Of a stretch of 64,000 bases of DNA, positions 12,845 through 37,274 are shown piece by piece. The translations under genes and the position numbers were made by a program. The first letter of the stretch is position 1. Each line of letters opens with the position of its first letter. A model generated the notes under the pieces. The model made no database searches, was not told where the DNA came from, and saw only the letters and a list, made by a program, of their open reading frames with translations. Source of the DNA: Opitutus sp. GAS368 (GTDB lineage: Bacteria; Verrucomicrobiota; Verrucomicrobiia; Opitutales; Opitutaceae); NCBI GenBank assembly GCA_945906965.1, contig CAMDRP010000006.1, forward strand, positions 1 to 64,000, in the 5' to 3' direction.

Positions 12845-13615
12845 TTATTGTGGGCGCGGGATCGTGAGGATCTCGGGGCCGCTATCTGAAGTGAGCACCG
12901 TGTGTTCGAAATGCGCGGAGGGCTGACCGTCGGAGGTGACGTGAGTCCAACCATCGGCTAGGGTCTTAGTCTTAAAACCGCCCAGGTTAACCATGGGCTC
13001 GATCGCGAGCGTCATGCCGGGCTTGATTTTTTCGCCGGAACCGCGCCGACCGAAGTTGGCGATCTCTGGCGGTTCATGCATCGCGGTGCCGACGCCGTGG
13101 CCAACCATATCGCGGACGACGCTGAAGCCGTGACTTTCGCAGTGGGTCTGAATCGCATGCGAGATGTCGCCGATGCGATTGCCGACTTGCGCTTGCCGGA
13201 TGCCGAGGTCGAGGGCTTCGCGCGAGACGCGGAGAAGTTTTTCGAGGGCGGGCGAAATCGGGCCAACCGGCAGCGTGGCGGCGTTGTCGCCGACGTAGCC
13301 GTCATACCACACGACGATGTCGAGTGAGACGATATCACCTTCGCGTAAAACGCGCCGGAGCGACGGAATGCCGTGTACGACTTCTTCGTTGACCGAGATG
13401 CAGGTGTGCGCCGGATAGCGGCGGGAACCGTGCTGATAACCGAAACAGGCGCTGCGCGCGCCCAAGCGAGCGATCCAATCGCGGCCTGCTTCCTCCAAAT
13501 CCTGCGTTGTGACACCGGGGCGAACGAGGGGCTTGATTTGATCAAGCACCGTCGCGGCGATGGCACAGGCCTCGCGCATTTTAGCGATACCGATTTTGTC
13601 TTTGATCGGGATCAT
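12845..13615 (-). CDS. map: Methionine aminopeptidase, type I
   Basis: Map removes the initiator methionine from nascent proteins. The 256-residue length fits type Ia. The five metal ligands of the M24 fold can be placed: Asp in SLDIVVWYDGYVGDNAAT (two Asp), His in MVGHGVGTAMHEPPEI, Glu in TLAIEPMVN and Glu in AHFEHTVL; the substrate His is in YPAHTCISVNEEVVHG. Its start overlaps the stop of the adk-derived gene by four bases (ATGA), so the two are translationally coupled. The location downstream of secY is standard. Confidence 0.97.
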   Translation of the reverse strand: MIPIKDKIGIAKMREACAIAATVLDQIKPLVRPGVTTQDLEEAGRDWIARLGARSACFGYQHGSRRYPAHTCISVNEEVVHGIPSLRRVLREGDIVSLDIVVWYDGYVGDNAATLPVGPISPALEKLLRVSREALDLGIRQAQVGNRIGDISHAIQTHCESHGFSVVRDMVGHGVGTAMHEPPEIANFGRRGSGEKIKPGMTLAIEPMVNLGGFKTKTLADGWTHVTSDGQPSAHFEHTVLTSDSGPEILTIPRPQ

Positions 13616-14043
13616 GCAGCGAGTGCGGCCTCATCTTTTTGGAGGAGGCCTAAGGTGCGATAGTGTTCGATGAGCGATGCCGAGGCATCAGGGGCGGCAT
13701 AAACGGCGACGAGGTTTTCGTCGCGAGCGTCCATCCATTCGTCGAACACCAAAGCTTGGAGCAGCGTAGCCGGGAAGTCCGTAAGGACAAATCCCGCATC
13801 AGGTTTGCGCGCAAAGAACCACTTTCGCAACGAGGCGAGAGTAGCGGCTTCAGTCGCCGCGGCGGAGCCGGGGCGGCGCGAAATCTCCCGGCGCGACAGG
13901 CCGGCGGGAGAGACGTGCTCAATGTGCAAAGAACGGTCCAAGTTCATCAGGTTTTCGGAGTGAAAAGCAGCTGAACCGAGGAGAATGATTTTGGCTTTAG
14001 CGGGAGGTCCGCCAAGCGCGTAGAGGTCGTTGATGGAGGCCAT
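13612..14043 (-). CDS. Degenerate adenylate-kinase-like protein lacking the P-loop
   Basis: The 143-residue product occupies the place between secY and map that adk holds in many bacteria. It keeps the outline of an Adk: a first strand KIILLGSAAFHSENL in the position of the P-loop strand, GFVLTDFPATLLQAL where Adk has the AMP-binding GFxLDGFPRTxxQA, a following strand LVAVYAAP, and a last segment SLIEHYRTLGLL resembling the C-terminal helix. The glycines and lysine of the P-loop are gone, the AMP-binding Arg is Ala, and the LID region is deleted. A phosphotransfer function is therefore unlikely. The reading frame is intact and coupled to map, so it is expressed. The start at MASINDLYALG lies just beyond the secY stop. 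Confidence 0.75.
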   Translation of the reverse strand: MASINDLYALGGPPAKAKIILLGSAAFHSENLMNLDRSLHIEHVSPAGLSRREISRRPGSAAATEAATLASLRKWFFARKPDAGFVLTDFPATLLQALVFDEWMDARDENLVAVYAAPDASASLIEHYRTLGLLQKDEAALAA

Positions 14044-14062
14044 CGAGACCCGAGTAAAGAAC

Positions 14063-15565
14063 TTATTTGACGAAGTGGCGGTAGGCGGCGATGACGACGC
14101 CCAACACCAACAAACCGAGCATGGGCAGCGCGAGCTTGATGATAGCATCGGAGCTGAGCGCGTCGCCCGTCATCCCTTGCGGGTTGGCGCTGCGAGCGCG
14201 GATACGGCCTTTCTTGAGGAAACCGTCGTAATGACGCTGCAAGAGGAAGGTCTCGATCTGGCGCATGGTGTCGAGAATGACGCCCACGGTGATCAACATG
14301 CCCGTGCCGCCAAAGAAGATGGCGATACGTTGAGGAACGTTGAGTTCGAAAAGGAGCACATCAGGCATGACGGCAATAACGGTCAGGAAGATCGCACCCG
14401 CCAGGGTGAGACGGGTCATGATGAAATCGAGGAATTGGGCGGTGGGTTCGCCCGGACGCACACCGGGGATATAACCGCCATACTTCTTGAGGTCGTCAGC
14501 GATCTGGATCGGTTTAAACATCACGGATACCCAGAAATAGCTGAAAAACATGATCAGCACGGTATCGATCAGGTAGTAACTCCAATGACCGCGCAGGAGG
14601 TTTTGCGAAATCTCGATCAAGAACTTGATGTTAAAGGCCGCGCCGAGTTGAGAGAAGATCTGCTGTGGGAAGAGCAAGATGGCGCTGGCGAAGATGACGG
14701 GCATGACGCCCGAGTAGTTGACCTTGAGCGGGAGGAAGGAGCTTTGGCCGCCCATGACTTTATTGCCCACCACGCGCTTGGCGTATTGGACCGGGATCTT
14801 GCGCTGGCCTTGCACGACCATGATAATACCCATCGTCACGGCGACGAAGAGGACTCCCATAACGACGGCTTGCGGCAGACCGAGGCTTTGACCCGTGCCG
14901 ACCGGACGGAAGAACAAATCGTAGGTGGCGACCGCCGCATTGGGAATATCGGCCAAGATACCGACGGTGATGAGCAAAGAGACGCCATTACCGATGCCGC
15001 GCTGGGTGATCTGCTCGCCGAGCCACATCAAGAGCATGGTGCCGGCGGTCATGAAGATCACCGAGGTGATCAAAAATCCAAGTTTATCGACCACGACAAT
15101 GGCTCCGTAGACATTCTCATCGTATCCGGGGAAAAGACGGGCCGGTTGTTCGAGCGCCCAAATAAGGAGCGTACCCTGCACTAAGCAGATGATCACCGTC
15201 GCATAACGCATGTACTGCGTGAGCTTCTGGCGACCGACATCACCTTCTTGTTGGAGACGGCTCAAAGCGGGAACGACCGCCGTCATGAGCTGGAAAATGA
15301 TCGAGGCGCTGATGTAGGGCATAATGCCCAAAGCAAAAATTGCACCTTTCACGAGCGCGCCGCCCGTGAACATGTTGTAGAGACCAACGAGGGCCCCACC
15401 CGTGCCGCCGGCTTGTTCGGCAAAGAACTTCTGCAGCGGTGCCGGATCGATGCCGGGCAACGGGATGTGCGCACCGACGCGCGCAACGAACAGCAGCGAG
15501 AGCGTGTAGAAAATACGCGAGCGGAGCTCGGGGATTTTCAGCGAATTCGTGAAGGCGGAAAACAT
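14063..15565 (-). CDS. secY: Protein translocase subunit SecY
   Basis: SecY forms the protein-conducting channel of the inner membrane with SecE and SecG. The 500-residue product has the expected helices and signatures: IPLPGIDP near the plug, ALGIMPYISASIIFQL, GEQITQRGIGNGVSLLI, the KYGGYIPGVRPGEPT loop and the cytoplasmic C5 loop Arg region. Most SecY proteins end soon after the tenth helix; here about 50 residues follow, including an additional hydrophobic stretch LALPMLGLLVLGVVIAAY. It follows rplO by 80 bases in the usual order. Confidence 0.97.
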   Translation of the reverse strand: MFSAFTNSLKIPELRSRIFYTLSLLFVARVGAHIPLPGIDPAPLQKFFAEQAGGTGGALVGLYNMFTGGALVKGAIFALGIMPYISASIIFQLMTAVVPALSRLQQEGDVGRQKLTQYMRYATVIICLVQGTLLIWALEQPARLFPGYDENVYGAIVVVDKLGFLITSVIFMTAGTMLLMWLGEQITQRGIGNGVSLLITVGILADIPNAAVATYDLFFRPVGTGQSLGLPQAVVMGVLFVAVTMGIIMVVQGQRKIPVQYAKRVVGNKVMGGQSSFLPLKVNYSGVMPVIFASAILLFPQQIFSQLGAAFNIKFLIEISQNLLRGHWSYYLIDTVLIMFFSYFWVSVMFKPIQIADDLKKYGGYIPGVRPGEPTAQFLDFIMTRLTLAGAIFLTVIAVMPDVLLFELNVPQRIAIFFGGTGMLITVGVILDTMRQIETFLLQRHYDGFLKKGRIRARSANPQGMTGDALSSDAIIKLALPMLGLLVLGVVIAAYRHFVK

Positions 15566-25602: not shown

Positions 25603-25623
25603 GGCGTAAAAGAACGGATAAGT

Positions 25624-33366: not shown

Positions 33367-37146
<3,780 letters not shown>

Positions 37147-37227
37147 GGGAATATCCGGTCAGAGGTGAATGACGAAAAAAAGACAAGTGCCCGGCGCTCA
37201 ATGCGCCGCGCGGGAACCTAACGAAAG

Positions 37228-37274
37228 AACAAAGAAAAAGCCAAAGGACAGACCGCGCGAGGCACGGCCTGTCC
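37228..37274 (-). promoter_or_regulatory. Terminator-like hairpin (candidate attenuator) between rplL and rpoB
   Basis: On the minus strand GGACAG-G-CCG pairs with CGG-T-CTGTCC around a nine-base loop, followed by the T-rich stretch TTTGGCTTTTTCTTTG. E. coli has a partial terminator in the same intergenic region that lowers rpoBC expression relative to the ribosomal proteins. The one mismatch and interrupted T-tract fit partial rather than full termination. Confidence 0.5.

Follow-up and report, generated by a model that had tools for sequence, protein, structure and literature searches.

Alpha operons are usually regulated by S4. Known kinds of element include structured elements of ribosomal-protein operons, boxA sequences outside rRNA operons and RNAs situated inside coding regions. 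An S4 operator has been shown in Escherichia coli (PMC10931766), and S4 leaders have been proposed upstream of rpsM operons in Clostridia and Fusobacteriales (PMC7247131). Baniulyte et al. (2017, PMC5725501) describe sites of the boxA type upstream of suhB and rpsJ, along with autoregulation by way of the Nus complex. Candidates in CRISPR operons (PMC9067536) are an example of structured RNA that overlaps coding sequence in bacteria.

Here we describe a locus of Opitutus sp. GAS368 (assembly GCA_945906965.1, contig CAMDRP010000006.1, positions 1 to 64,000 of the forward strand; this stretch of 64,000 nucleotides is referred to as the window). As with S4 leaders of alpha operons (the E. coli pseudoknot and those in PMC7247131), a putative structured RNA is located upstream of rpsM-rpsK-rpsD-rpoA-rplQ, but here it has no Rfam match, precedes map and lies inside a gene relic. 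Like the non-rRNA NusB/NusE sites at suhB and rpsJ (PMC5725501), the locus places a boxA-like sequence in a translation-related operon, and CGTTCTTT occurs upstream of rpsJ in Opitutaceae too. Unlike those sites, the candidate boxA is found within an ORF, at the foot of a predicted 181-nt four-way junction and about 320 nt upstream of map. In addition, the Opitutaceae boxA reads GYTCTTTGAAA, whereas the known sites read GYTCTTTAANA. In common with coding-region RNAs (PMC9067536), an RNA fold appears to be under selection inside an ORF, but the host gene here is a dead enzyme gene and one relative keeps the RNA after loss of the frame. It is this setting inside a dead enzyme gene, together with an RNA outliving the frame in one relative, that is unusual. 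Literature search retrieved no paper on the element and nothing published on regulation of the secY-map cluster in Opitutaceae. The locus adds a new structured RNA candidate to one of the best-studied bacterial gene clusters.

Table 1. Genes and predicted RNA elements of the locus, with positions in the window
Feature	Position	Strand	Remark
map	12845..13615	-	downstream of pseudo-adk ORF; ATGA overlap
pseudo-adk ORF	13612..14043	-	143 codons; Adk relic lacking P-loop and LID; overlaps map by ATGA
secY	14063..15565	-	upstream neighbour of pseudo-adk ORF
Block A	14053..14059	-	CTTTACT right after secY stop; core in 80/80 kept loci
P0	14024..14051	-	hairpin around ORF start codon; weakest stem
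H1	13989..14018	-	hairpin GGC...GCC
H2	13935..13982	-	hairpin GGUUC...GAACC, inner UUUUC...GAAAA
Core structured RNA	13754..13934	-	181-nt four-way junction, model R1
Block B	13925..13934	-	boxA-like site; GTTCTTTGCA in window, GTTCTTTGAA in most relatives
P1, 5' strand	13913..13920	-	GAGCACGU; closing helix, invariant
P1, 3' strand	13759..13767	-	ACGCUGCUC; invariant save one bulged position
P2	13884..13911	-	hairpin UCUCC...GGAGA; compensatory changes
P3	13808..13880	-	GCGC:GCGC stem enclosing hairpins P3a and P3b
J3/4	13797..13806	-	junction, AAACCUGAUG; nearly invariant
P4	13771..13796	-	hairpin CGGG:CCCG, inner GUCC:GGAC; V86-D89 / L-E / A-G covariation
CCGTTCTTTTACGCC	25603-25620	-	just before rpsJ

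Descent of the frame between secY and map

According to the initial annotation, an intact 143-codon gene stands between secY and map, its frame kept open and coupled to map by ATGA. We confirm this for the window, where the ORF starts about 20 bases past the secY stop and its own stop, TGA, shares ATGA with the map start. On the 3' side of map follow rpsM-rpsK-rpsD-rpoA-rplQ, encoding S13, S11, S4, RpoA and L17. Matches in the order secY-ORF-map were obtained in 26 of 57 related genomes, with the frame unbroken in all of them except the congener G005. Because of this conservation, the ORF is judged not to be a chance one.

When relatives were searched, the ORF turned up throughout the family Opitutaceae, each time flanked by secY and map. 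In a scan of named genomes, 155 stretches were found to encode it, nearly all belonging to records titled Opitutaceae, Opitutae or Verrucomicrobia MAGs. The frame is complete in 79 of the 80 loci that were kept (the remaining one runs off its contig), and every holder has it at the same place, behind secY. In most other Opitutales families, map stands close behind secY and nothing lies in between. Two genomes (G027 and G047) gave no secY or map match despite completeness ratings of 100% and 95%; their operon may be unassembled or masked.

Sequence and structure comparisons indicate that the ORF is almost certainly derived from the adk of the operon. Searched by itself, the window copy gives no Pfam match, but orthologues that retain the stretch RTPLGQ.A......G score 32.5 to 49.6 bits with PF00406 (ADK), above its cut-off of 26.8 bits; L017, L020, L021 and L026 are over this cut-off. 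In reverse search, a profile of the pseudo-adk family retrieves true Adks with E-values down to 6.5e-15. Outgroup Verrucomicrobiota carry a full Adk in the slot: one of them (L196) has secY-adk-map with a 222-codon Adk frame, and most others display adk-map linkage. An AlphaFold model of pseudo-Adk built from 77 sequences (pLDDT 70) has 29 PDB matches at E <= 0.001, the best at 4e-5, and 50 of 50 among the Foldseek matches listed are NMP kinases, with moderate TM of 0.42-0.64. The resemblance to Adk noticed in the initial annotation is thus borne out, including the NMP-kinase-like core for which a structural check had been proposed.

Pseudo-Adk shares with adenylate kinase (Adk, PF00406, TIGR01351) the gene slot secY-adk-map, the NMP-kinase core and the NMP-binding segment, its block FPATLLQA corresponding to DGFPRT..QA. 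It is shorter, however, with 143 aa against about 215. The P-loop GxPGxGKGT is absent and LGSxxxxSE is found in its place; PF00406 alignments of most orthologues start at profile position 16-19. Absent as well is the LID stretch with its arginines, as the protein ends soon after HYRTLGLL. Both losses had been recognised earlier. The AMP-binding Arg, also reported as gone, is in part still there: the Arg36 equivalent is kept (SPAGLSR, compared with STGDMLR in Adk) in the window and in 70% of orthologues. The Arg88 equivalent is Ala (FPAT, compared with DGFPRT); only L026 and L027, both branching early, have FPR. Given established knowledge of Adk, the lack of P-loop and LID and the Ala at the Arg88 position rule out a kinase role of pseudo-Adk, and the enzyme job must therefore lie elsewhere.

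The only other Adk-family match in the same genome is a 409-aa protein (G000:C4:60574-61803; L001:1321-2550) with the P-loop GGAPGAGKGT and DGFPRT. A true adk had been expected elsewhere; what the genome does have as its second member of the Adk family is this divergent protein and not a canonical adk. Matches similar to it, far below the NCBIfam adk cut-offs, occur throughout the order Opitutales, and some relatives also hold canonical or tandem Adks. In L053, L054, L055, L056, L057 and L059, a single open frame of 413-576 codons joins two Adk domains head to tail.

Constraint on nucleotides and on protein

That the gene is non-catalytic and kept under selection, as proposed initially, is supported by our analysis, which also reveals constraint at the nucleotide level that had been missed. 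Among fourfold sites whose first two codon bases agree, 66.4% of comparisons in the ORF show an identical third base, compared with 48.3% in map and 47.2% in secY (77 species); base composition would predict the opposite order. Third-base identity in the ORF exceeds that in secY in 99.1% of species pairs, and in 10 of 10 comparisons with the window the ORF shows less synonymous divergence than either neighbour. The signal is concentrated in blocks (CGT TCT TTG .. GAG CAC GTC TCT, GAG ATT TCG, AAA CCT GAT GCG and CCG GCT ACG CTG CTC CAA), with codon blocks invariant in about 77 species. Judged from these sequence comparisons, constraint at the locus is largely on the nucleic acid. No overlapping gene was detected, every alternative frame having stops in at least 12 of 79 species.

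Outside the invariant blocks, the ORF behaves like a protein gene by its substitution pattern. Codons 98-134 have pN/pS of 0.42 and a pS (0.556) near that of map (0.597) and secY (0.590), and HYRTLGLL is conserved while its synonymous codons vary freely. A residual role of the pseudo-Adk protein, for example one involving HYRTLGLL, is possible. Since invariant synonymous blocks occur together with protein-like constraint outside them, both layers, RNA and protein, seem to be selected in most species.

The protein-like behaviour of HYRTLGLL and of codons 98-134, the complete frames and the finding that this is the only frame free of stops in every species could also mean that the locus encodes nothing but a non-catalytic Adk pseudoenzyme which binds a partner. 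Nucleotide conservation would then be a by-product of codon preference or of protein conservation. We consider this quite improbable, as the synonymous choices TCT TTG, GAG CAC GTC, CCG GCT ACG and CTC are invariant in 77 species while secY and map vary, the conserved CTTTAC lies outside the frame and G005 retains the blocks without the frame.

The candidate structured RNA

Pairing probabilities averaged over 28 sequences yield a fold with a closed domain P1-P4, in which P1 is formed by GAGCACGU and ACG-UGCUC. In this fold 90.7% of alignment cells are paired, compared with 34-53% when slid, and compensatory double changes amount to 27 cells, compared with 9.0 +/- 2.5 in shuffled alignments (0/500); for both figures the structure was derived from the same sequences as were counted. 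P1 and the outer part of P4 are invariant and hence display no covariation. Pairing within P4 explains amino-acid covariation between positions 86 and 89 (V86-D89, L86-E89, A86-G89).

An alignment-free test was also performed, in which the 5' half of a hairpin from one species was joined to the 3' half from another. Native hairpins P0, H1, H2, P2, P3a and P4 beat all 300 derangements in stability (0/300). Of these, H1, H2, P2, P3a and P4 reach z of -6.5 to -10.4, and control windows fall below z -6 in 2 of 160 cases in map and 1 of 193 in secY. Unguided approaches gave less: blind pairwise covariation produced no clean signal, being dominated by shared ancestry of the secY end, and a blind scan for helix covariation did not rise above the codon-block shuffle null. 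The window RNA is not much more stable than its codon-shuffled versions (z -1.2 to -1.4), and hairpins of the 5' domain gain little over column shuffles. Antisense hairpins are about equally stable, so the choice of the RNA strand rests on operon direction and G-U pairs. On balance, the pseudo-adk ORF very probably contains a selected RNA structure. Rfam scans of the window, L028 and L117 returned nothing relevant, and phage records contained no match. The idea that the element is an otherwise missing rnpB was ruled out, RNase P RNA being present elsewhere in 12 of 12 genomes tested.

Stop codons in relatives had been named initially as evidence against a retained gene. They were found in one congener, G005 (L028:1290-1715), where the frame is broken and two short pieces are left between intact secY and map; the RNA blocks survive there. 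Its DNA retains AAATAAGTTCTTTACTCGGG, CGTTCTTTGCACATTGAGCACGTCTCTCC, AGGAGATTTCGCG and CCCGGCTACGTTGCTCCAAG, and its P2 is a near-perfect stem with changed letters. In the G005 core, 88% of conserved columns are kept, compared with 37% of variable ones, and several of those lost fall in the protein-conserved TGG stretch. The sequence scores 128.7 bits with the covariance model. Retention of RNA blocks without the frame argues for RNA function, not against function. A decaying pseudogene without any function would account for the lost catalytic motifs and for the lost frame of G005, but it is contradicted by frames intact across many genera and by the invariant blocks and compensatory changes, and its probability is close to nil.

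Early branches L026 and L027 display traces of the core only (20 bits), which suggests that the core RNA probably arose inside an already degenerate gene. The locus offers a clear natural case in which an enzyme gene has lost catalysis while a probable RNA element preserves its coding sequence and, in one relative, has outlasted it. It is also a warning that a conserved 'protein' found in searches can partly echo RNA constraint.

Possible action in cis and the boxA-like site

Homology to adk and RNA structure are well supported; the function we infer. Block A, whose core is CTTTAC or, in one subclade, CTGGAC, is located 16 nt ahead of most start codons and outside the frame, and NTTCTTTACTCNGG occurs only once in the genome. 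CTTTAC is also kept in relatives without ORF and map. In three relatives (G020, G024 and G030) ORF and map are gone from the operon and the core RNA is absent, and block A alone is kept between secY and rpsM, directly before rpsM, followed by a CTTTTT run about 35 nt on; elsewhere map mostly stands between. In three family members (L217, L218 and L219), a leader of some 180 nt separates secY from rpsM, map having moved elsewhere. Two other readings of block A were dropped: CTTTAC is no general feature of gene starts in the window, and for a promoter -35 element with 17-base spacing, conservation of the hexamer downstream breaks down in the GTG-start clade.

Persistence of block A before rpsM in relatives lacking the rest suggests a role in cis. 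Taken together, the locus is probably a dead adk that harbours a structured mRNA element at the spc-alpha junction, and we lean slightly towards regulation of map and the alpha operon in cis by this RNA. The four-way junction, which is compact and closed, has P1 and junction segments that do not vary and is present in one copy per genome, might instead be a small RNA, either independent or processed, that acts in trans and for which the mRNA is merely the source. This is unlikely, considering the fixed position after secY in all holders as well as the persistence of block A just mentioned.

The account we favour, at somewhat better than even odds, is as follows. The operonic adk would have lost its enzyme function in the ancestor of Opitutaceae, and a structured RNA would have come to occupy its coding sequence, at the point where the spc operon, which ends in secY, meets the map-alpha operon. 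The targets of this RNA in cis would be map and the genes of the alpha operon (S13, S11, S4, RpoA, L17). The boxA-like GTTCTTTGAA may recruit the NusB-S10 (Nus) complex, and ribosome supply may feed back on the operon via translation of pseudo-Adk/map or via Rho-dependent termination.

The clue to NusB-S10 comes from rRNA operons. In G014, the one genome in which rrn was read, the leader of the rRNA operon contains GCTCTTTGAAATTT and its 16S-23S spacer GTTCTTTGAAAGTT, both of which we take to be positions where boxA lies. Block B of most species matches the spacer boxA of G014 in 10 of 10 positions, and that of the window is one base off the G014 rrn boxA (9/10); of 5000 shuffled elements, only 1 matches rrn boxA as closely. 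Moreover, CGTTCTTT is found just upstream of rpsJ, encoding S10/NusE, in 13 of 15 Opitutaceae genomes. Recruitment of NusB-S10 in cis is favoured because of these two observations and the precedent of PMC5725501, and this boxA mechanism is put forward tentatively, at less than even chances. The complete scenario, in which a dead adk still encoding pseudo-Adk was overwritten by a boxA-bearing RNA through which map and the alpha operon respond to availability of NusB-S10, is rather unlikely as a whole. If true, it would constitute, together with CGTTCTTT before rpsJ and the rrn boxA, a feedback circuit linking transcription of rRNA to the synthesis of ribosomal proteins.

The main functional rival to a Nus-factor site is an operator for a ribosomal protein such as S4, to which we assign a low but real probability. 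The element does precede an alpha operon, and both the proposed S4 leaders (PMC7247131) and the S4 operator of E. coli (PMC10931766) are precedents; on the other hand, map intervenes between element and rpsM in most species, and the sequence offers just one specific clue, the match to boxA. Finally, GTTCTTT at 37224-37230 (minus strand), a possible boxA-like site, is located about 80 nt upstream of a long ORF (33367-37146) that is probably rpoB.
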